In this document: piece after piece, positions 3,062 to 33,634 of the stretch
Layout: the number at the start of each line of letters is the position of its first letter
Numbering within the stretch: the first letter of the stretch is position 1
The notes under the pieces: model-generated
The model's database searches: none
The model's input: the letters and a program-made list of their open reading frames with translations, nothing else
What the model was told of the DNA's origin: nothing
DNA from: a virus
Reading direction: 5' to 3' (one strand)
DNA length: 35,425 bases
IMG/VR virus record: IMGVR_UViG_3300028027_000005
Coordinates: 1 to 35,425 of that record
Position numbers and translations under genes: made by a program

Positions 3062-3745
3062 TTAGTTATTAATTATTTTATAATATTCTCTTACAGCTAC
3101 ATAATTAGCATAAATTCTTTTAAATTCTGAACTGTTCCTTTCAGTGTCAAATTCTTCATTAGAATTAAACCAAATATCCCATTCTTCTATAGTTTTTTCT
3201 TTACATCCGATTCTAATTAAATCATTTTTAATTGATATTGACCATTTTGAAAAAATAGGCAAATTAGCATCTCTCAAATAAGCACCTCTCAAATTAGCAC
3301 CACTCAAATCAGCACCTCTCAAATCAGCACCACTCAAATCAGCACCTCTCAAATAAGCATCTCTCAAATCAGCACCACTCAAATTAGCACCACTCAAATT
3401 AGCACCACTCAAATTAGCACCACTCAAATAAGCACCTCTCAAATAAGCATCTCTCAAATCAGCACCACTCAAATCAGCACCACTCAAATAAGCACCTCTC
3501 AAATTAGCATCTCTCAAATCAGCACCACTCAAATTAGCACCACTCAAATAAGCACCTCTCAAATCAGCACCACTCAAATCAGCACCTCTCAAATAAGCAT
3601 CTCTCAAATCAGCACCACTCAAATTAGCACCACTCAAATAAGCACCACTCAAATAAGCATTTTCAATTGTTTTTTTCAATGTATTATTTTCGCATTCATA
3701 TTCAAATAATACTGAACCAAAAATAGATTTAATTTCAATTTTCAT
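3062..3745 (-). CDS. Pentapeptide-repeat protein
   Basis: This 227-aa protein has 26 consecutive A(Y/N/D)L(S/R)(G/D) pentapeptides from residue 30 to 159. These are expected to fold as a right-handed quadrilateral beta-helix. A 29-residue N-terminus precedes the repeats and a ~68-residue unique C-terminal domain follows ('SKWSISIKNDLIRIGCKEKTIEEW'). Some family members (MfpA, Qnr) mimic DNA and bind gyrase; most have unknown roles. It has its own terminator-promoter boundary upstream, so it is expressed separately from the lysis genes. A gyrase or host-target role is speculation. The repeats are unusually uniform in DNA sequence. Confidence 0.9.
   Translation of the reverse strand: MKIEIKSIFGSVLFEYECENNTLKKTIENAYLSGAYLSGANLSGADLRDAYLRGADLSGADLRGAYLSGANLSGADLRDANLRGAYLSGADLSGADLRDAYLRGAYLSGANLSGANLSGANLSGADLRDAYLRGADLSGADLRGADLSGANLRGAYLRDANLPIFSKWSISIKNDLIRIGCKEKTIEEWDIWFNSNEEFDTERNSSEFKRIYANYVAVREYYKIINN
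3269..3658 (-). repeat. 26 tandem 15-bp units encoding pentapeptides
   Basis: The 390 bp encode 26 pentapeptides in nearly identical 15-base units. On the plus strand units read like CACCACTCAAATNAG, CACCTCTCAAATNAG or CATCTCTCAAATNAG, with variation at only a few positions. Blocks of four to six units recur (AYLSG-ANLSG-ADLRD-AYLRG-ADLSG-ADLRG type), suggesting duplication of 60-90-bp segments. Low synonymous divergence points to recent expansion or homogenisation. Confidence 0.92.
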
Positions 3746-5128: not shown

Positions 5129-6382
5129 TTATGCAATTGTCCATCCTTTGGTGGTCGCTATTAATTTTTCTGGTGCCGTTACTGCTGCATAACCTGGATT
5201 AGTTGAAATTGTAATTGTTGGAGTTCCTACTGCCGTGCCTAATCCGTAAAAAATATTAACAATTTCAGTTTGACTCAAACACATATTTGCATAAGAAATA
5301 GCATAACGAGTACCTTGAAAGGCTGCTTTTGCTATTGACGGCGATAAACTAACTACACCTAAAAATTGCGTTCCTACTGCTGTATTCAAATTAGGTAATA
5401 ACTGTAATGATTGGCATTGTTGAAACATATATCTAAAATCCAATCCCGCTACCGTATTAATAAGCGGAACAGATTGCAAAGAATAACAACCGTCAAACAT
5501 AGAAAAGAAACTTGTTGAAAGGGTTGTAACTAATGCAGGAATAGTCCTTAAAGATATGCAGTTTTGAAACATTCCTGATACTGTAGTGGCTAAAGCTGTA
5601 TTTAAAAGTGGTATTGATTTCAAAGAATAACACTGTAAAAACATAGAATCAAATAAAGTACCCGCTCCAGTATTAAATGATGGGATTGATTGCAAAGAAT
5701 AACAACCCGTAAACATACTCGAAAAAGTAATCCCTGAAGCCGTACTAAATAAAGGAACAGTTATTAAACTCCTGCAATTTTGAAACATTGCAAAAAAGTT
5801 AGTTACTGCCGTTGTACTTGGTAAAGTAAGTTTTTGTAAGGTGTAAAAGTTTGAGAATAAAGTAGTAAAATTAGTTATTGCACCCATAGAATATATGTCT
5901 ACATTTTCACACATACTTTGATAAACAGTCGAACCCCCTAAAGTCATTGTCGTAATATTTGCACCTTTAATAGCTATATCTAACCAACCCATTGAATGCG
6001 CCTTAGCTAAAATGCTATTTTGCTGCTGTAAATCTATTTTAGTTAAATTTTGACCTGATTGCGGTGTAACTCTTACTAAAACTTGTTTATAACCACGAGC
6101 AGAAAGTGACCCGCTGCTTATTGTTGAATAAGTGTAAGTGTGTTGAGCCTTTACGTTAGTAGCTACATTTTCTGTAACTCCATCACCCCAATCAACTGTG
6201 TAAGCTCCCTGACAAGTTAACGCTATATGATTACTACTATCGTCTGTAACTGCTAATAACCCTATAAACTCTTGCGTCCCTATTGTTGGCATAGCTAACC
6301 AATCAGAAGGCCTAGTCCATCCTGAAGGATCTACAGGTGCGGACGCTGTTACATTTGGTAATTTAAAACTCCCTACTGCCAT
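5129..6382 (-). CDS. BspA-type leucine-rich repeat surface/fibre protein
   Basis: This 417-aa protein has an N-terminal region with a PKD-like signature ('VDWGDGVTENV' followed by 'HTYTY', residues ~60-85). About eight repeats follow, of roughly 23 residues, of the form 'MFxxCxSLxxIPxxxT' (about residues 175-350), the DUF285/BspA-like leucine-rich repeat. BspA-type repeats occur on Bacteroidota cell surfaces and mediate binding. Encoded at the end of the tail-fibre block and sharing base 6382 with the preceding gene, it is probably a virion adhesin or receptor-binding protein. No signal peptide is present, which fits a virion part rather than a secreted host protein. Confidence 0.78.
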   Translation of the reverse strand: MAVGSFKLPNVTASAPVDPSGWTRPSDWLAMPTIGTQEFIGLLAVTDDSSNHIALTCQGAYTVDWGDGVTENVATNVKAQHTYTYSTISSGSLSARGYKQVLVRVTPQSGQNLTKIDLQQQNSILAKAHSMGWLDIAIKGANITTMTLGGSTVYQSMCENVDIYSMGAITNFTTLFSNFYTLQKLTLPSTTAVTNFFAMFQNCRSLITVPLFSTASGITFSSMFTGCYSLQSIPSFNTGAGTLFDSMFLQCYSLKSIPLLNTALATTVSGMFQNCISLRTIPALVTTLSTSFFSMFDGCYSLQSVPLINTVAGLDFRYMFQQCQSLQLLPNLNTAVGTQFLGVVSLSPSIAKAAFQGTRYAISYANMCLSQTEIVNIFYGLGTAVGTPTITISTNPGYAAVTAPEKLIATTKGWTIA

Positions 6383-6690: not shown

Positions 6691-9473
6691 TATACTGGTA
6701 TTTTTAAAATATTCATATTCAAATCAGAAACTATTACGTTGTTAACACTTGAAGTATTTCTAACAAATAACTCGATATAATCATTAGCGGTTAACTCAAT
6801 TACTGCTTGAGTACCGCCAAAAGAAGGCGTACTACCTGCAGCGCAAAGAATAGTCATTTCACTTTCACTTATATTAGTTCCGTTTTTAACTATTACAATA
6901 TTAATTGTTTGAGTAGAAACCGAAGTTCTAACATTACAATTTACAGTTACAAAAAAACTTTGTGTAAATGCGCCTGTATATGTCAATCGGTTTGAACTTG
7001 GCGAAGTGAATTTTGAGTTCGCACTACTTGCCGTGGTAGTTCCTGCAGCTTTAAAATAAGAAGCTGTTCCTGTTATTGCCGTTGCTGTTGTATTGTCCAA
7101 CATGTGAAGGAATCCACGTGTTGAAGTATTGGTAATACCTACACAATTAGAGAATAAAGACTTATTAGAAGTAGCATCAAATCCACTAATATAAGTACCT
7201 CCTCCGCTAAAGTTACAAGTATCTAAAATATATTTTTCATCGCCTACAGTTGCCGAACTATTAAAATTTACTCCTGTTTCGCCTGATAATGTAACAAATG
7301 ATGAGTAAATAATTCTCAAACGTCTGCTAACGGTACAAGTAGATAAAACGGTAATCGCTGTTTTTGTACTTGCTGTATCGAAAAGGCAGTTACTAAATGC
7401 TATTGTACCTATCGTGCCATCAAAGATAAAACCGCCACTATTTAATAGTGCGCTATCTCCTGCTACAAAATTAGTGTAATTGCTAATTGTTCCACCACTT
7501 GCACAATTTAAAAGGTTAACCCCGAACCAATCTAAAGCCGTTGTAGTTCCATCGCCTTGTAAATCAAATACCAAAGCGTGAGTAAATGATATATTACGAA
7601 TAGGCAAAGAATAAACCGAAGTTATTAAAGCAGTTGAACCGCTTAAACCCGTTGAACTAATTGAACAATTTTCAGAACTCCAACCTACAATAACTGTATC
7701 TTGACCGCATACCAAACGAGAACCCAATAAGTCAATATGCTTTAAAAATAAGTAAGTATAACCGCCTACTAATGTAATTACTCCACTAACTGCGCTTGGT
7801 AAGTCTGTCAAAGCATTTACCTCAATAAATTCTGCGTGGTTGCTTTCGTAATCAAATGCATCAATTTCCGCTTTCGTGTAATACTCTAAAAATCCTGAAC
7901 TTGTAGGTGTATAAAGAATGTTTATTTTATCGCCACTTTCTAAAGCGTCATCTATCGTTAAAGTATTAGTTACAAAAGAATATTGTGAACTGTTTAATTC
8001 CTGACCATTTACAAAGACCGCATAAATAAAACTTGGTGTACTTGCTAAAGTGAAACTTTGAGAAGCTGTATAACTGAATTCCTCACGGGTTAAAGGCACT
8101 CCACCGCTCGGAATAACATTCAAAGGAACTGGTATGATACTTCTTACAGGACTTGTACCCCCAAATTGAAAGTCGTAAGTAGGGTTAGAACCTCCACCAA
8201 CTTTTGTACCGTAAAATTTAATTACAATTCTATCAGTTGAAACAAAAATTCCATCATTCCACAATCCATTTGTAAAAAATTCAGCATAAACAGAAGATGT
8301 AATTTGCTGTGTGTTATTAGATTGTAGTATTAATGTTTCTGTTCCTCCTAAATCTCTTTTATAAACTCGAAAGAAAAATTCTGCTTGACCTGATCCAGCT
8401 GTTTTTCTAATATTACCGATAGTGGTCATATTGAATACACCAGGATTACCAATAATTTGGTTTTGGTCTGTTATCAATCCAGCAATTAGTTGGTTTGTTC
8501 CTGTAATTGCTCCCGTGCTTACGTCTACTGCTGTGGTATTATAGTCTGGGTCTGTAATAGAAGATACCAATTTATTATAACCACCAATTCCACTTGCTAC
8601 AGTTGTAGGATAAACTGTAAGTGTACTTGGTAAATCTTCTAATGATATGAAATGACTTGTACCATTGTCGCCGTCATTTATTAAGTCGCTTGTTTTTGTT
8701 GGTATATTTGGTTGTAATACCCAAACAGCAGCCGCACTTGTGTTATCGGTACATACATATAAATCACCGTCATCTAAAATCCAACGTGAACCAACTATAA
8801 AACCTTTTGACGTGTCATCGGTAGCAGCGGGTGTAGTTGTAAAATTGTGCGATACTTCTCTAATAGTTGTACCACCATCTCCCATTACATAAAGCCTACC
8901 AGCTTCCCATTTCAACTCATAACCTACTGCGCAAATTTGAGCGATACCTTTTGTGCCTCCATAACCAGCGTCAATTGTACCTTTTTTTAATAAAGATCCG
9001 TTATCTAATATTATAGCGTCGCCACTTGAAATAGATATATTCTCTCCTCCAGTTAAATTACCCTCAACTAAAACATCGTTTAAGTTTTGAGTACCACTGC
9101 CACCAGTACTTGATATAATTGGGTTTAATGGATCGGTGTTATCAATTGTTACGTTTGTACCTGCTATAACACTTTCAATATACGATGTTGGAACGTCCCC
9201 GTCCCTATTAAAACCCACATATTTTAAAGCCTCTAATCTTATCATTAAAGCTTGAGAACTTACAAAAGTTTCCATTGCTCCTCCTGCCGTATCGTCATAA
9301 ACGGTTATATTACCGTATAAGTATTCTTTACGACTACTTCCGCTTTCTTCTACGATTTTAAAAATATTATCATCTGTTTTACAATAGAATTTTGACAATA
9401 TAAATTCATCTGCATCACTTGGTATGTGTAACCAAGTCTTTGCACTTTTTTTTCTGATTTGTAGTGTTGCCAT
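6690..9473 (-). CDS. Large tail fibre protein with beta-helix-like region
   Basis: This 927-aa protein begins with a short conserved-looking head ('MATLQIRKKSAKTWLHIPSD') that may anchor to the tail. It continues with Gly/Ser/Thr-rich fibre sequence, including 'YTKAEIDAF' (~res 545) of the type seen before trimerising fibre segments. Residues ~555-790 have repeated short strands and Asn/Ser/Thr turns, consistent with a parallel beta-helix (polysaccharide-binding or depolymerase-like) fold. The last ~130 residues look like a jelly-roll. The probable job is host-surface recognition. No catalytic residues can be assigned by eye. Confidence 0.8.
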   Translation of the reverse strand: MATLQIRKKSAKTWLHIPSDADEFILSKFYCKTDDNIFKIVEESGSSRKEYLYGNITVYDDTAGGAMETFVSSQALMIRLEALKYVGFNRDGDVPTSYIESVIAGTNVTIDNTDPLNPIISSTGGSGTQNLNDVLVEGNLTGGENISISSGDAIILDNGSLLKKGTIDAGYGGTKGIAQICAVGYELKWEAGRLYVMGDGGTTIREVSHNFTTTPAATDDTSKGFIVGSRWILDDGDLYVCTDNTSAAAVWVLQPNIPTKTSDLINDGDNGTSHFISLEDLPSTLTVYPTTVASGIGGYNKLVSSITDPDYNTTAVDVSTGAITGTNQLIAGLITDQNQIIGNPGVFNMTTIGNIRKTAGSGQAEFFFRVYKRDLGGTETLILQSNNTQQITSSVYAEFFTNGLWNDGIFVSTDRIVIKFYGTKVGGGSNPTYDFQFGGTSPVRSIIPVPLNVIPSGGVPLTREEFSYTASQSFTLASTPSFIYAVFVNGQELNSSQYSFVTNTLTIDDALESGDKINILYTPTSSGFLEYYTKAEIDAFDYESNHAEFIEVNALTDLPSAVSGVITLVGGYTYLFLKHIDLLGSRLVCGQDTVIVGWSSENCSISSTGLSGSTALITSVYSLPIRNISFTHALVFDLQGDGTTTALDWFGVNLLNCASGGTISNYTNFVAGDSALLNSGGFIFDGTIGTIAFSNCLFDTASTKTAITVLSTCTVSRRLRIIYSSFVTLSGETGVNFNSSATVGDEKYILDTCNFSGGGTYISGFDATSNKSLFSNCVGITNTSTRGFLHMLDNTTATAITGTASYFKAAGTTTASSANSKFTSPSSNRLTYTGAFTQSFFVTVNCNVRTSVSTQTINIVIVKNGTNISESEMTILCAAGSTPSFGGTQAVIELTANDYIELFVRNTSSVNNVIVSDLNMNILKIPV

Positions 9474-27251: not shown

Positions 27252-28452
27252 TAAATTGTTTTATGTTAAATTTTTCTTTTTTGCTTACAGTTTTATAAAT
27301 TGCCTCTGTTAGTGATCCTTTTTCAAAGATAAAATAAACATCATTTGTTGGTCTATCTTTTAAAGTTAATCTGTCAATAGCCTGAATGAAATTTTTACCT
27401 GAATAACCAAAATTATAAAATACTAAACAATCTGCTTTAGATAATGATATACCTTCACACGAACTTACCTGCTGCCCTAAGTAATGTTTATCAGTATTAT
27501 TAAACTCGTTTAAATCTGTTGTGCATTGATCCTTAAAAACATCCTGTAATAAAGTTAATTCATTTTTGAAATTATAGATAATAGCTAACTTTTTACCTTC
27601 AAAATATTTCTTAATAAATTGACCTTTTGCATCGCTTAAAATCTTATTATTACCTGATTCAAAAATAATAGTTCCATTTTCTAATTGGTGTATCTTTTGC
27701 AAAAGTTTAACACCGCTATCAGCAATAATTAACTCATCTTTACCCTCAATTAAACTATCTCTTTTTAACATTTCAATTAAAATTTTATTACTAATAGGAA
27801 AATGGATAACGTGTTTATTAACTTTTGAAACAAAACCGCTTTGCTCTTGCGTGTATTTTAACGTGTAAGGCTCTATAATTACATTTACCGATATCATATC
27901 GCATTTACTATAATCATTGATTAAACCATGCCCTAATTGCTTCTGTGTTACTTTTACGTAATCCTTCGCCCATTTATAAAAGTTTGTATAGTATTTAAAC
28001 GGACTATAATCGCTAAAATTAAACTGGTGGTATATTTGCGATCCTGATTCAACGCACATCGTACCGCTCAAAAGTATAGCTGGAATTTTTGAAAAACGTG
28101 CCTTTGCAATTTTATAAAAGTTATTAGGTTTTGGATATGTTGAGAATAAACCGTGCGCCTCATCGTAAATTATAACATCAAATTTATTGTGTTCTATTTT
28201 GTGAATGGATTCTTTGTTTATTATTGTTAGATTAAAATCATACCCAGCAACATTAAAGTCATCCTGAATACTTTTAAAGGCTTTTATCTTTGTAATAAAT
28301 AAAACATCCTTTGCATTAACATTTTGGCACGTTTGCAATGCCGTTAATGTTTTACCAACTCTTGGTGCAAAGTTATAATAAACAATTCCTTTGGACTTTA
28401 AAATATTTGCTCCTCTTGTGGATAGTTCTATTTGGTATGAACGTAAAATCAT
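27223..28452 (-). CDS. SF2 DEAH helicase
   Basis: This 409-aa protein has the Walker A-like 'APRVGKT' (29-35), 'VIIYDEAH' (93-100) and motif III 'LLSGTM' (128-132). Near the C-terminus is a motif VI-like 'FIQAIDRLTLKDR', all of superfamily 2. Gly usually precedes the Lys in this compact phage type, as seen here. It overlaps the primase gene by 4 bases and the VRR-NUC gene by 29, forming a primase-helicase-nuclease operon. It probably unwinds replication or recombination intermediates. Confidence 0.88.
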   Translation of the reverse strand: MILRSYQIELSTRGANILKSKGIVYYNFAPRVGKTLTALQTCQNVNAKDVLFITKIKAFKSIQDDFNVAGYDFNLTIINKESIHKIEHNKFDVIIYDEAHGLFSTYPKPNNFYKIAKARFSKIPAILLSGTMCVESGSQIYHQFNFSDYSPFKYYTNFYKWAKDYVKVTQKQLGHGLINDYSKCDMISVNVIIEPYTLKYTQEQSGFVSKVNKHVIHFPISNKILIEMLKRDSLIEGKDELIIADSGVKLLQKIHQLENGTIIFESGNNKILSDAKGQFIKKYFEGKKLAIIYNFKNELTLLQDVFKDQCTTDLNEFNNTDKHYLGQQVSSCEGISLSKADCLVFYNFGYSGKNFIQAIDRLTLKDRPTNDVYFIFEKGSLTEAIYKTVSKKEKFNIKQFNEYRATNPK

Positions 28453-30707
28453 AGTTTCTTTATCCAGTTGTTAATAGTAACACGGCTCACATTAAACTCC
28501 TTCGCCAATTTACTTTTATTAATATTATCTATTCCTTTGGCTTCTATTAATTTTTTCAAAGTATCAAGTACATTATCTTTGATTTTACCGCTTTTTATAT
28601 CCGATACATCCTTATTCTCTAATCCTTCTGTTTTAATTTTCTTAAATTGTAATACAAAATACTCGGCTAATTTCTCAGCTTTTATTATTGTTTCTGCATT
28701 TACTTTTACTTCTTTGATATCTTTATCATCAAAAAAACAATCAATAAAATGAATTATAAGTGATAATCTTGGAATATACGTTTTAATCTTTGCAATCATA
28801 CTTTTGTACATTTCAGGTTCATTTTCTGAATTTTGCAAATCAACATATTTATTAAATACTCTTACCCATTCATCATTTGCATTTTTATCTAATTTACAAA
28901 TGAAAGGTATTATTTCATTGTTATCATCTTTTTTAATAATATGCCTAATATTGTCATTCATTTTTAAAATAGTATTTTCATACCATTCAATTAATTGTTC
29001 TGGCAATTCATCATTATTGTACTGCTCGGCTTTTAAATTATTAGGATAAGCAAAAAGAAATCTATCTATAAATCCTGAACTAATATTTTCATTTGTGAAA
29101 TGACTGTCTAAAATTTCAGGTTGAATACCTCCAAGTACTGGAATAAATGGTGAACTAATATACAAATCATCTCTTGATAATCTATTAACAATAATACTTT
29201 CATTTGACCAAATAGATAGCCATTGTTGTTTATCTGAACCCTCTCTATATTTATTCATGTCTTTAAACCAACCATCTAATTCATCTTTAAAAACCCCAAT
29301 AGCGTTTTTGGATTCGTTATGAATAGATATTAAAGCTTCTATTGTTGTATCACTTGCAAGTAGTTGTTTTCTTTTAGGTTTGTCAATTGGAATAGTACTT
29401 TTTTGGTCTTTTTTAGACATTAAAAGATAGTTTTGATATTCCTCATATTTTTGAAAATATTCCTCAATTCTTTTTTTATTAATCTTTTTTAGTGGATAAA
29501 TAATATTGTTTATACTTGGTGTTTTACCAAGTCCAGCCTGACCAACTAATGACAAAAATAAAGTACATGATTCAGTCCATCCTTTTTTTGCTTCAATCTT
29601 TAATGAATTGCCAATAATAACAGACATCATCCAAAGAAATGAAGAGGCCATAAAGTCCTCATTTAACATCAATTTAGTTTTTGATTCTGAAATGTATAAT
29701 TGAATTTCATTTGGAAATATATCAATAGGAAATTCTTTAGTTTCTATCTTTTGGATTATATCTTTTGGAAATTCTTTTACTAAACGAGATCCGTACCCAC
29801 TTAAATACAAATCCTTTGAAGCTGCTGAATAATCTCCATTATGATACTTGTATGCAAATGCAGTAAATGGTGTTATTAGTTTTTCGTGTGGGTAACAAGT
29901 TCCAGTACTAAAAAGATACATAAAGCCACTATCTCTAAAAACATAACCGCTATGAGCTGAAGTTGCACCGTGTCTTTTAATAACTTGTTTATTTGATAAA
30001 TTAGCTACAATAGTAAAATCTGATCCAATAACGTCAAAAATACTATGCTTTTGGTTATAATCATCCCAAGGTGTTATTTTAGATTCTACATAATCATTTT
30101 TAGATACTTTTATCGGCTCTACTTCCTTTACAAAATTATAGATTTTAGAACAGGATAAAATAATATCCCTATCCTCTTTAGAAATATAGTCTATATCTAA
30201 ATAGGAACGCTTATTATATTGATTATTTGGATAAACAAAGCAATAACCACCCTTTGCCCTAGTTTCTAAAATAGCTTCGGTATAACCCTCTAAAACAGCT
30301 AATTTTTTATTACCTTCTATTTCTTCACATTTAAAGAAAATATGATATCCATCCGATTGAGTTTTATAAATAACTACTTTGTTATAAAAATCAAAAATAT
30401 TATCATCTAAGAAGTTAATATATTCATCCCAAAACTCTTTACGATCTTTAGCAGCTTTTAAAACTTTTAAATCAACATCAATACATTGTAAATTATCATA
30501 ACCAGTAACAATACCAAAGTTATTCGTTGAAGGTATTTCTGTGCCATCATTTCTAAATATACCGCCTTTGTAATTATAGTTTTTAGAAAATTCAGTAAAT
30601 GATAGTTTTTCTGTTTGTGATTTTTTCCAAGGGAAGTTGGGAACTTTATTGCTCCCAACTGTTATCAAAGAAAAATTTTCACAAAGGTTTTTTAAATTAA
30701 ATTCCAT
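28449..30707 (-). CDS. Primase-helicase (prim-pol-like N-terminus, DUF3987-like ATPase)
   Basis: This 752-aa replication protein has an N-terminal region (~1-185) that resembles a bifunctional primase-polymerase: 'FPWKKS', 'GIVTGYDNLQCIDVDLK' with Asp77/Asp79, 'SDGYHIFF' with His122 and 'ETRAKGGYCFVYP'. The middle has Walker A 'GQAGLGKT' (389-396) and 'FKDELDGWF' (473-481), as in DUF3987 helicases. The C-terminus is a small HTH ('SKLAKEFNVSRVTINNWIKK'). It probably primes and unwinds DNA at the phage origin. No DNA polymerase gene is present elsewhere, so the host replicase is presumably recruited. Confidence 0.87.
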   Translation of the reverse strand: MEFNLKNLCENFSLITVGSNKVPNFPWKKSQTEKLSFTEFSKNYNYKGGIFRNDGTEIPSTNNFGIVTGYDNLQCIDVDLKVLKAAKDRKEFWDEYINFLDDNIFDFYNKVVIYKTQSDGYHIFFKCEEIEGNKKLAVLEGYTEAILETRAKGGYCFVYPNNQYNKRSYLDIDYISKEDRDIILSCSKIYNFVKEVEPIKVSKNDYVESKITPWDDYNQKHSIFDVIGSDFTIVANLSNKQVIKRHGATSAHSGYVFRDSGFMYLFSTGTCYPHEKLITPFTAFAYKYHNGDYSAASKDLYLSGYGSRLVKEFPKDIIQKIETKEFPIDIFPNEIQLYISESKTKLMLNEDFMASSFLWMMSVIIGNSLKIEAKKGWTESCTLFLSLVGQAGLGKTPSINNIIYPLKKINKKRIEEYFQKYEEYQNYLLMSKKDQKSTIPIDKPKRKQLLASDTTIEALISIHNESKNAIGVFKDELDGWFKDMNKYREGSDKQQWLSIWSNESIIVNRLSRDDLYISSPFIPVLGGIQPEILDSHFTNENISSGFIDRFLFAYPNNLKAEQYNNDELPEQLIEWYENTILKMNDNIRHIIKKDDNNEIIPFICKLDKNANDEWVRVFNKYVDLQNSENEPEMYKSMIAKIKTYIPRLSLIIHFIDCFFDDKDIKEVKVNAETIIKAEKLAEYFVLQFKKIKTEGLENKDVSDIKSGKIKDNVLDTLKKLIEAKGIDNINKSKLAKEFNVSRVTINNWIKKL

Positions 30708-30958
30708 TACGATGCTGTTGTTTCAAATTCATAAATAATTACATCTTTAGAATACGAAACTAATCTAAAAATACAATCTCCAAAACTATTGTATTTTTTA
30801 TATTCAATCAAAATACATCCTTCTACTATATTATTTTCTAAATTATCTTTAATTTCTTTCTCTAACTTGTTTAAAATTTCATTCGCCGTGTAATGATTAA
30901 TATTTATATAATTAAATATTTCTCTAAATCTTAATTCTTCTGCTATAATAATTCTCAT
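30707..30958 (-). CDS. 83-aa hypothetical protein under structured leader
   Basis: This 83-aa protein starts MRIIIAEELRFREIFNYINI, with mixed helix and strand. Its stop overlaps the primase start (TAATG), so it should be co-translated with it. It is the first gene after the structured leader at 30974-31075, so leader control would reach the whole replication operon. It has no recognised family. Confidence 0.72.
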   Translation of the reverse strand: MRIIIAEELRFREIFNYININHYTANEILNKLEKEIKDNLENNIVEGCILIEYKKYNSFGDCIFRLVSYSKDVIIYEFETTAS

Positions 30959-30973
30959 AATATTTATTTTTTA

Positions 30974-31075
30974 AATCCATAATTGTTATTAAATAAAAAT
31001 GCCCTATGGATTGGAAGTAGAGCTCCGCACCATAAGGCTTTTAAAAAAGGTCTTTAATTGTATTAATGCTCTACC
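30974..31075 (-). promoter_or_regulatory. Structured 5' leader with possible pseudoknot/alternative hairpin
   Basis: In minus-strand RNA, 31068-31075 (GGTAGAGC) can pair with 31016-31023 (GCTCTACT). The segment 31030-31038 (GCCTTATGG) can pair 9 bp with 31001-31009 (CCATAGGGC), including a G-U that is a C-A mismatch on the other strand. The four arms interleave, as in an H-type pseudoknot. Bases 31005-31012 (AATCCATA) can instead pair with 30974-30981 (TATGGATT), just upstream of the A-rich ribosome-binding region and the ATG at 30958. No known riboswitch class is recognised. Confidence 0.5.
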
Positions 31076-31088
31076 AATAATACAAGTA

Positions 31089-31096
31089 CAAATATA
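31089..31096 (-). promoter_or_regulatory. Probable -7 element of replication operon promoter
   Basis: TATATTTG on the minus strand matches TAnnTTTG. The -33 region is weak (no TTG at 19-20 bases) and the GTAAT dyad of the other promoters is missing. If used, the transcript begins a few bases further on, so the leader would be about 125 nt and contain the whole structured element. Confidence 0.55.
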
Positions 31097-31140
31097 ATAC
31101 TTTTTTTAATATAAATACTAATAAAGTTATTTTTTTAAAA

Positions 31141-31398
31141 GTGTAAAGAAAGTGTAAACCTACCTTTACAGGTTACACCCCAAGTTACACCCCATAAAAT
31201 CAATGATAGCAAGACTTAACAGCGGAAAGTGTAAACCTTTACACTTTTTTTTTATTTTTTTTATTTTTTTTTATTTTTTTATATTTTTTTAACCTACTGT
31301 AAACTGTAAACTCTTTACAATTTACTTTGTCAACCCTTATAAACATTGAAAAAAAACTGTAAAGTATTATTGTAAATATACCTTTACACTGCTTTACA
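31141..31398. other. Iteron-like repeat field and A/T tract: replication origin candidate
   Basis: The 492-bp gap between 30958 and 31451 is the only long non-coding region. Within 258 bp it holds 12 copies of TGTAAA/TTTACA (starts 31142, 31153, 31165, 31230, 31238, 31298, 31305, 31314, 31358, 31371, 31383, 31393), in both orientations. It also holds two GTTACACCCC copies 12 bp apart (31172, 31184) and a palindrome with 10-bp arms (31226-31235 and 31238-31247). A pure A/T tract of about 48 bp (31245-31292) could be the unwinding element. It lies directly upstream of the primase-helicase operon. Confidence 0.55.
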
Positions 31399-31399
31399 T

Positions 31400-31426
31400 A
31401 AAAAAACCGCTAAATTTCTTCAGCGG
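31400..31426 (-). terminator. Intrinsic terminator after helicase-methyltransferase gene
   Basis: On the minus strand CCGCTGAA-GAAA-TTTAGCGG forms an 8-bp stem (one G-U) closed by a GAAA tetraloop and followed by seven T. It lies 25 bases after the stop at 31451. Confidence 0.88.
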
Positions 31427-31450
31427 CTAAAACAAAACTTTGTAAATGTA

Positions 31451-33634
31451 CTAAAATAAAGTTAATGTACTGTTTTTTTCTTCAACAAATGCCTTGTGAT
31501 TATTTGAATTAATTTTAAAATAACTTTCTTTTAATTCAATAGATATGCTTTTACGATTCATTTTAATAGCTGAACAACCCTCTGATCCAATTCCTCCAAA
31601 TGGACTTAATACCGTTTCGCCTTCATTTGAATATAAATGTAATATTCTTTCGATAGTATCTAATTGTAAAGGGCAAATATGTTTTTCATCATTGCCATCT
31701 CGACCGCTTCTATATTGTAAAGTTCTTGAATAATCAATATCATACCAAACAGGAGAAGCGTATTTTTGCCATAAATCTACTGGCAAATAATCTAATTTGC
31801 TGCTATCTTTATCTTGGTGTGTTATTGGTGTTTCATTATCGCCTTCATTTCTAAAAAATAAAACGTAATCAGGTATTCCAACCCTTGACATAATACTATC
31901 TTTTTTAATGGTTTTATGAAGTAATCCTAATGCTTTAGTTCTTTGCATTTCGGTTACTGGATTTTTCCATAATGTTACTTTTGAGTGATATATAAAACCC
32001 TCTTTTTGAAACCAATCAATTAACATACCTGAAAAATCACGCAATCCGATATATCCCTCTTTGCCTTTTTGTATTGGTAAGTCCATACAATGTATAGCGC
32101 ACATACGACCACTTTTAAGCGTTCTTTTTAATTCAGGGATTAGGTATTTAAAATGCTTCTCAAATTCTTTATAATTCGATACATTTCCCATATCCTCCTC
32201 TTTATCTGAATATACATATAATTCAGCAAATGGAGGACTAAATACAACTATATCCGCACAGTTATCAGGTAGTTTTGCAGTTTCCTGAACGCAATCGCCA
32301 TTTATTAAGTGGTATTCTTCTGTTTTAATTTCTTTATTCATAATTTTTACTTTTGATTTTGCTTTTTTGTAATTAGTTTCTGCGCTGTATTTTGACATTT
32401 CTTTAATACGCTCAAAATGTTGTTTTTCTTTTTCTAAAATAGTATTTCTAACATTTACTTGTGATTCAGGTATAAGAATATGAACGGTTACTTTATTTTT
32501 TTGACCGAACCTATAGCATCGTCTTACAGCTTGGTAAAATGCCTCAAATTTAAAATCATAAGACATAAATACCATTTGATTACATTGCTGGTAATTCATA
32601 CCAAATGAAGCTATAGAAGTCTTTGTAATTAATGTTTTAAAATTATCATTTGCAAATCCATTCAAATGTTTAGCTTTATATTCAGGATTATCAGAACCTT
32701 GTACATTTACGCTATTTTCAAGTAATTTTGATAATGTATCTGTTTCTTGATTTTTTAAACCCCAAACAATCCATTGATTGTCATTTGAGTTAACCAGTTC
32801 CAATGTTTTTTCAATTCTTGCATCAAATGATCTATTTAAATCTTTATGCAATTCGGTAGCAGATACAGCAACATCTCCAAATAGATTTTCGCTTAAATTA
32901 TCTACTTTTATAATATGCTCGATATATTCTATTTCAGGTAAATTATATCCTTCACTACAAAAACCTAAACTTGATGGATTATCAATTGCCATAGATAGTC
33001 CAGATATATAAGTCCAAAAGTTATCCTGTGCGTGTTTTCTTAATCGCCATTTAGAAGTTTCTCCTCCATCGTGAACGAAAAACATTGCTAACATTTCTAA
33101 ATAAGACATACCACCTAAAAACTCTGAATGTTGCCCTAATTCCATATGATCATTTGGGGATGGTGTAGCAGTACAAGCTAATTTATAAGGTGTATTTTTA
33201 AAAGTTTCAATTATCAAAGATGAAAGTTTACCATCTCTACCTTTTAAAATACTGGATTCATCTAAAACTACTCCTGAATAAATACTACAATCAATATTTT
33301 TTAATTGATCATAATTAGTAATATCAAAATAAGAAGAATCAATTCCAAATTTTGCAGCTTCATTTTTTGTCTGTTCTACAATTGCCAAAGGTGCTAATAT
33401 CAAAACCTTTTGATTTGTCTTAATTGATACTTGTTTTGCCCATTCTAACTGGCAAAAAGTTTTTCCTAAACCGCAATCAAAAAAGAATGCAAATTTTCCT
33501 TTAAATAAAGCAGTTTTAATACCATACTTTTGAAAGTCTTTTAATAATGGATTTAATTCATTTTCATTAATTTCAAATCCACTTTCAACAAAAGTCTTTC
33601 TTTTTGTTTCTAAAAATTCTTTGTAATCTGTCAT
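31451..33634 (-). CDS. SNF2-like helicase fused to DNA methyltransferase
   Basis: This 727-aa protein has two halves. Residues ~30-395 form a SNF2/SF2 helicase: Walker A 'DCGLGKT' (53-59), 'VVLDES' (122-127), motif III 'TATPS' and motif VI 'QAVRRCYRFGQ' (368-378). Residues ~440-710 form an amino-methyltransferase with catalytic 'SPPF' (466-469) before the SAM-binding 'SPFGGIGSEG' (677-686), the beta-type order of N4/N6 enzymes. An internal ATG at 32341 (residue 432), preceded by AAAAATT, could make the 296-aa methyltransferase alone. It has its own promoter and terminator. It probably modifies phage DNA against restriction; no nuclease domain is present, unlike type ISP enzymes. Confidence 0.88.
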   Translation of the reverse strand: MTDYKEFLETKRKTFVESGFEINENELNPLLKDFQKYGIKTALFKGKFAFFFDCGLGKTFCQLEWAKQVSIKTNQKVLILAPLAIVEQTKNEAAKFGIDSSYFDITNYDQLKNIDCSIYSGVVLDESSILKGRDGKLSSLIIETFKNTPYKLACTATPSPNDHMELGQHSEFLGGMSYLEMLAMFFVHDGGETSKWRLRKHAQDNFWTYISGLSMAIDNPSSLGFCSEGYNLPEIEYIEHIIKVDNLSENLFGDVAVSATELHKDLNRSFDARIEKTLELVNSNDNQWIVWGLKNQETDTLSKLLENSVNVQGSDNPEYKAKHLNGFANDNFKTLITKTSIASFGMNYQQCNQMVFMSYDFKFEAFYQAVRRCYRFGQKNKVTVHILIPESQVNVRNTILEKEKQHFERIKEMSKYSAETNYKKAKSKVKIMNKEIKTEEYHLINGDCVQETAKLPDNCADIVVFSPPFAELYVYSDKEEDMGNVSNYKEFEKHFKYLIPELKRTLKSGRMCAIHCMDLPIQKGKEGYIGLRDFSGMLIDWFQKEGFIYHSKVTLWKNPVTEMQRTKALGLLHKTIKKDSIMSRVGIPDYVLFFRNEGDNETPITHQDKDSSKLDYLPVDLWQKYASPVWYDIDYSRTLQYRSGRDGNDEKHICPLQLDTIERILHLYSNEGETVLSPFGGIGSEGCSAIKMNRKSISIELKESYFKINSNNHKAFVEEKNSTLTLF

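Follow-up and report, generated by a model that had tools for sequence, protein, structure and literature searches.

The alpha protein of satellite phage P4 unites primase, helicase and iteron-reading origin recognition in one protein and has two sites, ori and crr. In the rep-ori systems of SaPI/PICI elements, a Rep or Pri-Rep helicase goes together with two iteron sets that flank an AT-rich region, and these origins are described as lying immediately 3' of the rep gene (PMC6092414, PMC7581432). Both SaPI Rep and SCCmec Cch2 recognize their repeats by the C-terminal domain (PMC7581432). PrimPol-PV1 primases contain a helicase-like DUF3987 domain that was predicted to represent a type of helicase, and a C-terminal winged helix has been suggested to recognize the origin in relatives; no iterons or origins are described for the PrimPol-PV1 DUF3987 proteins in that work (PMC5862659). 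Nor did we find a description of iteron origins for DUF3987 proteins in searches of an open-access library.

Here, we investigated a putative iteron origin beside a DUF3987 primase-helicase gene in a stretch of 35,425 nucleotides from the IMG/VR virus record IMGVR_UViG_3300028027_000005 (referred to as the window throughout). A preliminary description of the window had placed an iteron-like field in the only long non-coding gap, directly upstream of the primase-helicase operon. The gap (30959-31450) is indeed the longest of the window when ORFs of at least 50 aa are considered. It is bounded by the stop of the helicase-methylase gene and by an 83-aa ORF, after which the primase-helicase gene follows, all on the minus strand; the gap thus precedes the operon as described, but the 83-aa ORF separates it from the primase-helicase gene itself. 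The features of the region are as follows:

28449-30707, minus strand: primase-helicase, 752 aa, with Prim-Pol N-terminus, DUF3987 helicase-like domain and C-terminal HTH
28452-28571, minus strand: C-terminal HTH, the proposed iteron reader (residues 713-752; recognition helix 742-751 with S741-R742-V743 at its start)
30707-30958, minus strand: 83-aa ORF, first in the operon, without family match
31001-31038, minus strand: stem-loop and subsequent T run of the leader RNA, a possible attenuator; relatives show a comparable stem with T run
31089-31096, minus strand: TATATTTG, Bacteroidota-type TAnnTTTG -7 promoter element of the primase operon, aligned at the equal place in close relatives
31141-31193, no strand: outer iteron block, near side; TGTAAA at 31142 (+), 31153 (+) and 31165 (-), TGTAAC-type GTTACACCCC at 31172 and 31184
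31226-31247, no strand: inner iteron block, near side; two head-to-head iterons forming the palindrome AAAGTGTAAA-CC-TTTACACTTT
31245-31292, no strand: pure A/T tract of 48 bp in the central gap that separates the inner blocks; proposed unwinding element
31298-31319, no strand: inner iteron block, far side; TGTAAA at 31298 (+), 31305 (+) and 31314 (-)
31358-31398, no strand: outer iteron block, far side; TGTAAA at 31358 (+), 31371 (+), 31383 (-) and 31393 (-)
31405-31428, minus strand: intrinsic terminator of the helicase-methylase gene
31451-33634, minus strand: helicase-methylase gene, upstream neighbour

TGTAAA/TTTACA starts 12 times within 31141-31398, in agreement with the number first reported, and a 13th copy lies at 31441. 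A comparison with shuffled expectation, which had been proposed as a check, revealed clear enrichment: dinucleotide shuffles of the 258 bp gave a mean of 1.26 copies and a maximum of 6 (n = 5000), and in 2000 shuffles the count of any GC-containing hexamer stayed at 8 or below. The 35-kb window contains 58 copies in all, with at most two in any other 258-bp stretch, and a single TGTAAA array. The reported palindrome with 10-bp arms was recovered at 31226-31247, and the two GTTACACCCC copies are real and unique in the window. Because they read GGTGTAAC on the opposite strand, these copies look like variant iterons of the TGTAAC type rather than a separate element. The A/T tract, previously estimated at about 48 bp, measures exactly this length and is the longest of the window (runner-up 32 bp). 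An Rfam search of 30900-31500 gave no match near the gathering score, and GC skew showed no switch near the array, which says little because nearly all genes lie on one strand. Elsewhere in the window, the gene at 3062-3745 (minus strand) contains a long run of 15-nt repeats (CTCAAATxAGCACCA-like) and forms the strongest hexamer cluster of the window (CTCAAA); its product is pentapeptide-repeat-like and matches several phage families of unknown function.

The primase-helicase carries both domains that define DUF3987/PrimPol primase-helicases, with Pfam matches to PF13148 (DUF3987, 1.6e-50) and PF09250 (Prim-Pol, 3.3e-05). In the AlphaFold2 model (mean pLDDT 76, low confidence in the middle of the helicase), three C-terminal helices (713-724, 731-737 and 742-751) form an HTH whose recognition helix begins after S741. 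Foldseek matched the N-terminus to the pRN1 and NrS-1 primases (1rni, 2.8e-05), and the remainder of the protein gave weak MCM and Cch matches only (SCCmec Cch, E 0.34-0.38, with a weak helicase model). A PDB search with the family profile did not find SaPI Rep, and the Pfam results of the proteins scanned contained no RepA/TrfA/pi-type winged-helix Rep. Among annotated phages the primase-helicase has only distant relatives; the nearest ones (Flavobacterium FCV and similar) match the window in the helicase-methylase gene only, and the FCV-3 stretch is without array. The genomes that carry the array look like tailed phages and not like satellites.

To follow the array through the family, viral contigs were scanned for the primase-helicase, which yielded 80 loci, and 74 distinct complete proteins were analysed. 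When no motif was assumed, most loci whose primase gene is complete had their best hexamer cluster next to it. With a threshold of eight copies, chosen like the threshold of six below in the course of the analysis, at least eight copies of one hexamer were found beside the gene in 67 of the 74 distinct loci, compared to one of 204 control regions (656 kb of these same loci away from the gene flanks), the single exception being the window's own pentapeptide-like repeat gene. A second set obtained with other queries, which shares some clades with the first, showed arrays of at least six copies in the loci of 49 out of 51 further distinct proteins, including two contigs titled Bacteroidetes/Bacteroidota MAG at 38-39% identity. 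Pooling both sets, an array accompanies the primase-helicase gene in more than 110 related loci. In the first set it lies upstream of the gene in 40 loci and downstream in 34, and on the core tree the side changed at least five times. The motif varies between relatives (TGTAAA, TGTAAC, GTTTAA, GTTCAA, TGTGAA and others). The expectation of the preliminary description that the same cluster would stand upstream of the gene in related phages was therefore borne out for the presence of an array beside the gene, but neither for the motif nor for a constant side. The locus without array (L056) begins at the gene start, so that an upstream array would not be visible there, and the closest relative (L005, 84% identity) has only five clear copies of TGTACA.

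The arrays share a layout in which outer iterons, spaced by about 10-12 bp, and inner iterons, spaced by about 7-9 bp, flank both sides of a central gap of about 63 bp (median 63 bp, IQR 60-65, 53 representatives) that holds the A/T tract. The exact count found most often is six iterons on each side (21 loci). In 63 of 70 loci, at least two iterons stand on either side of the array's longest A/T run, and in 45 of 70 loci of relatives the longest A/T run of the entire locus is within the array or immediately next to it (about 6% expected). The iterons are arranged in helical phase: same-strand distances show a period of about 10.75-11 bp, with peaks at 11, 21-22, 32, 42-43, 53, 64 and 74 bp, and the vector strength at 10.75 bp is 0.33 against a null maximum of 0.09, a null that is too generous as pairs within a locus are non-independent. 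Downstream arrays retain copy number, central gap and A/T tract. The outer and inner blocks of the relatives can also be read in the window, where the palindrome corresponds to the near inner pair and the GTTACACCCC repeats fall into the near outer group; the near-side outer block (31141-31193) has an equivalent layout in relatives.

The similarity of motifs between loci follows the HTH. Over 70 arrays, the partial correlation of motif similarity with HTH identity was 0.41 when the core was controlled for (p 0.001), whereas controlling for the HTH left no correlation with the core (-0.01); other 40-residue blocks reached at most 0.24. This correlation is carried by the downstream-array set (0.62). 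In the upstream-array loci alone, motif similarity goes with the core no less than with the HTH (partial r 0.42 versus 0.20; -0.03 for the HTH given the core with one locus per helix), and for this reason only one rule separates HTH from core there, namely the association of Arg at position 3 of the recognition helix with a G at base 4 of the iteron. A motif was called G-type when its top hexamer lacked KTA, a definition made after the first set had been examined. In the first set, Arg helices had a G-type motif in 9/9 cases compared to 2/28 of the other helices (p 4e-7); the upstream loci alone gave 5/5 versus 1/10 (p 0.002) and the new helices of the second set 3/3 versus 5/21 (p 0.028), resulting in 12/12 versus 7/44 for all helices. 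On the core tree the Arg trait changes eight times, and of six independent pairs on average 5.3 point in the same direction and none in the opposite one (sign test, median p 0.06). An alternative measure of base 4 by 5-mer counts (9/9 versus 10/26 helices, with position 3 as the only helix position with p < 0.05) proved noisy, with GTGTA inside GTGTAAA scored as G-type, and was superseded by the KTA call.

Individual loci illustrate the covariation. L079 and L113 have cores 98-99% identical to those of L072, L073, L077, L078, L081 and L082, and both HTH and motif differ. Conversely, the helix SLQMIYKY goes with GTTTAA both upstream and downstream, at cores that are 57-59% identical. Where the array is downstream, it directly neighbours the HTH sequence, so joint swaps of the two could reflect linkage. 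The helix SRQTVYNW was observed with TGTCAA in six loci (L310, L315, L316, L319, L339 and L348) and with TGTAAA as top hexamer in L314, so that L314 either departs from the Arg-G rule or has a mixed array.

A promoter motif accompanies the array when it lies upstream of the gene. Of 37 upstream-array loci, 35 have TAnnTTTG a short distance beyond the array, towards the primase gene (5.6 expected), as do 15 of 18 in the second set. On the corresponding flank of downstream arrays it is found in 2/32 loci (2.1 expected) and, in the second set, in 2/29. It is somewhat commoner on their other flank and strand (14/33, 6.0 expected; second set 8/30, 5.4 expected), where some downstream-array loci may have a promoter. 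Sigma-70-type scanning revealed promoter-like sites no more often than in shuffles. Between TAnnTTTG and the 83-aa ORF, the window encodes a leader RNA of 101 nt (30985-31085, minus strand) with an MFE of -26.3 (z -4.0 versus shuffles); the fold ends in a stem with a T run, a possible attenuator of the primase operon, and L003, L005 and L006 show a stem like it.

The sequences directly show the array and its layout, that it stays with the gene whichever side it is on, and that it covaries with the HTH. From these sequence features we infer that the array region is, with high probability, the replication origin of this Bacteroidota phage, read by the HTH of the primase-helicase. The original origin reading, iterons next to an A/T unwinding element, thus gains support from an arrangement that is family-wide and persists downstream of the gene without an adjacent promoter motif. 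In the proposed mechanism, copies of the primase-helicase would dock via the C-terminal HTH on the TGTAAA iterons, which are ordered outer-inner-[A/T tract]-inner-outer, and would sit there as two oligomers, one on each side, possibly hexamers by analogy with SaPI Rep. The docked oligomers might then strain and melt the 48-bp A/T tract, the helicase domains would load onto the opened strands and the Prim-Pol domain would synthesize primers, leading to initiation. The same iteron binding may additionally control the promoter just past the near-side iterons.

The array could instead be an operator, as the preliminary description had also considered, with the iterons serving as repressor or activator sites of the primase operon promoter and no origin involved. 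Such a role would be in line with the position of TAnnTTTG shortly past the array in the window and in nearly all upstream-array loci, and initiators often autoregulate. About half of the arrays, however, lie downstream, with the motif at chance level on the corresponding flank and with copy number, central gap and A/T tract kept, and in the window the far-side iterons are about 200-300 bp away from the promoter. Because the downstream arrays lack an adjacent promoter motif, the array is not just an operator, and we consider regulation as the main function unlikely; additional autoregulation is possible for upstream arrays, including that of the window. Chance or low-complexity clustering, for which the AT-richness of the region might speak, is already refuted by the shuffles, none of which came above six copies, and by the recurrence of a fixed layout over diverged loci.

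It is very unlikely that the array is an origin with a different binding protein, whether DnaA of the host or a small protein of the phage, for instance the 159-aa protein. The covariation is statistical and the upstream loci do not separate core from HTH, which leaves room for such a binder, but host DnaA does not explain why the motif differs among near-identical primase cores, and within the HTH the best predictor of the motif is a residue at the start of the presumed recognition helix. Of the two candidate binders named at the outset, the C-terminal HTH of the primase-helicase is favoured by the motif-HTH covariation, and nothing was found in support of the 159-aa protein, whose sole match is a family of unknown function.

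Since every plasmid needs an origin, arrays at plasmid DUF3987 genes fit the origin reading. In six out of nine plasmid loci the top hexamer cluster lies inside the 3' end of the DUF3987 gene or right after it; the remaining three (L164, L387 and L389) showed no array at the gene. The 7.6-kb plasmid pOSC7112.05 (L163) has 12 GTCCAC iterons inside the DUF3987 coding sequence near its 3' end (6887-7101), with spacers of about 43-45 bp like those of the phage arrays, and the Scytonema plasmids L384 and L385 resemble it. The Bacteroides conjugative plasmid pFunn3_1 (L160) carries eight CTGAAA in alternating groups directly after the DUF3987 gene (5319-5435). With appreciably less confidence than for the window's origin, we think it likely that initiators with DUF3987 form a wide class, present in Bacteroidota phages and some plasmids: all these primase-helicases would work on one rigid, helically phased scaffold, often 6+6, while HTH and iteron sequence would vary jointly as a specificity pair with a readable code. 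If true, phages could switch origin specificity with the enzyme core unchanged, and Arg at helix position 3 reading G at base 4 would be an element of this code, for which the natural HTH-iteron pairs provide a data set. DUF3987 primase-helicases would obtain a proposed function in origin recognition and initiation, a large group of uncultivated Bacteroidota phages a concrete candidate origin, and the array layout could be used to locate origins in related contigs.

Compared with the known systems, the window's protein resembles P4 alpha by its domains, with Prim-Pol, DUF3987 and predicted HTH in one chain, but P4 has two separate iteron sites and the window one TGTAAA array. The domain combination is identical to that of PrimPol-PV1, from which the window differs by a C-terminal element that is a three-helix HTH and by the array beside the gene. 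In the putative SCCmec Cch2 origin, the C-terminal domain of the helicase binds repeats adjoining its gene, as proposed here, but the description gives no more than three iterons, the primase is a protein of its own and the helicase belongs to another family (PMC7581432). The layout is like that of the SaPI/PICI rep-ori: two iteron sets around an AT-rich region beside a helicase or primase-helicase gene, a helicase with C-terminal DNA-binding domain (here a predicted HTH) and a proposed binding as two hexamers. The SaPI/PICI origin lies 3' of rep, whereas the array is upstream in the window and downstream in 34 of 74 relatives; Rep is of the D5/Primase_Cterm or DUF927 type, here DUF3987 is found without a match to SaPI Rep; and SaPI/PICI elements are satellites, in contrast to the tailed-phage appearance of the DUF3987 array carriers. 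Because position differs and the helicase family is unmatched, membership is not claimed. By analogy, the mechanism would be the same in kind as that of the SaPI/PICI Rep origins on a different helicase type, and an arrangement of origins credited only to PICIs in a 2018 paper would occur more widely, possibly by convergence.
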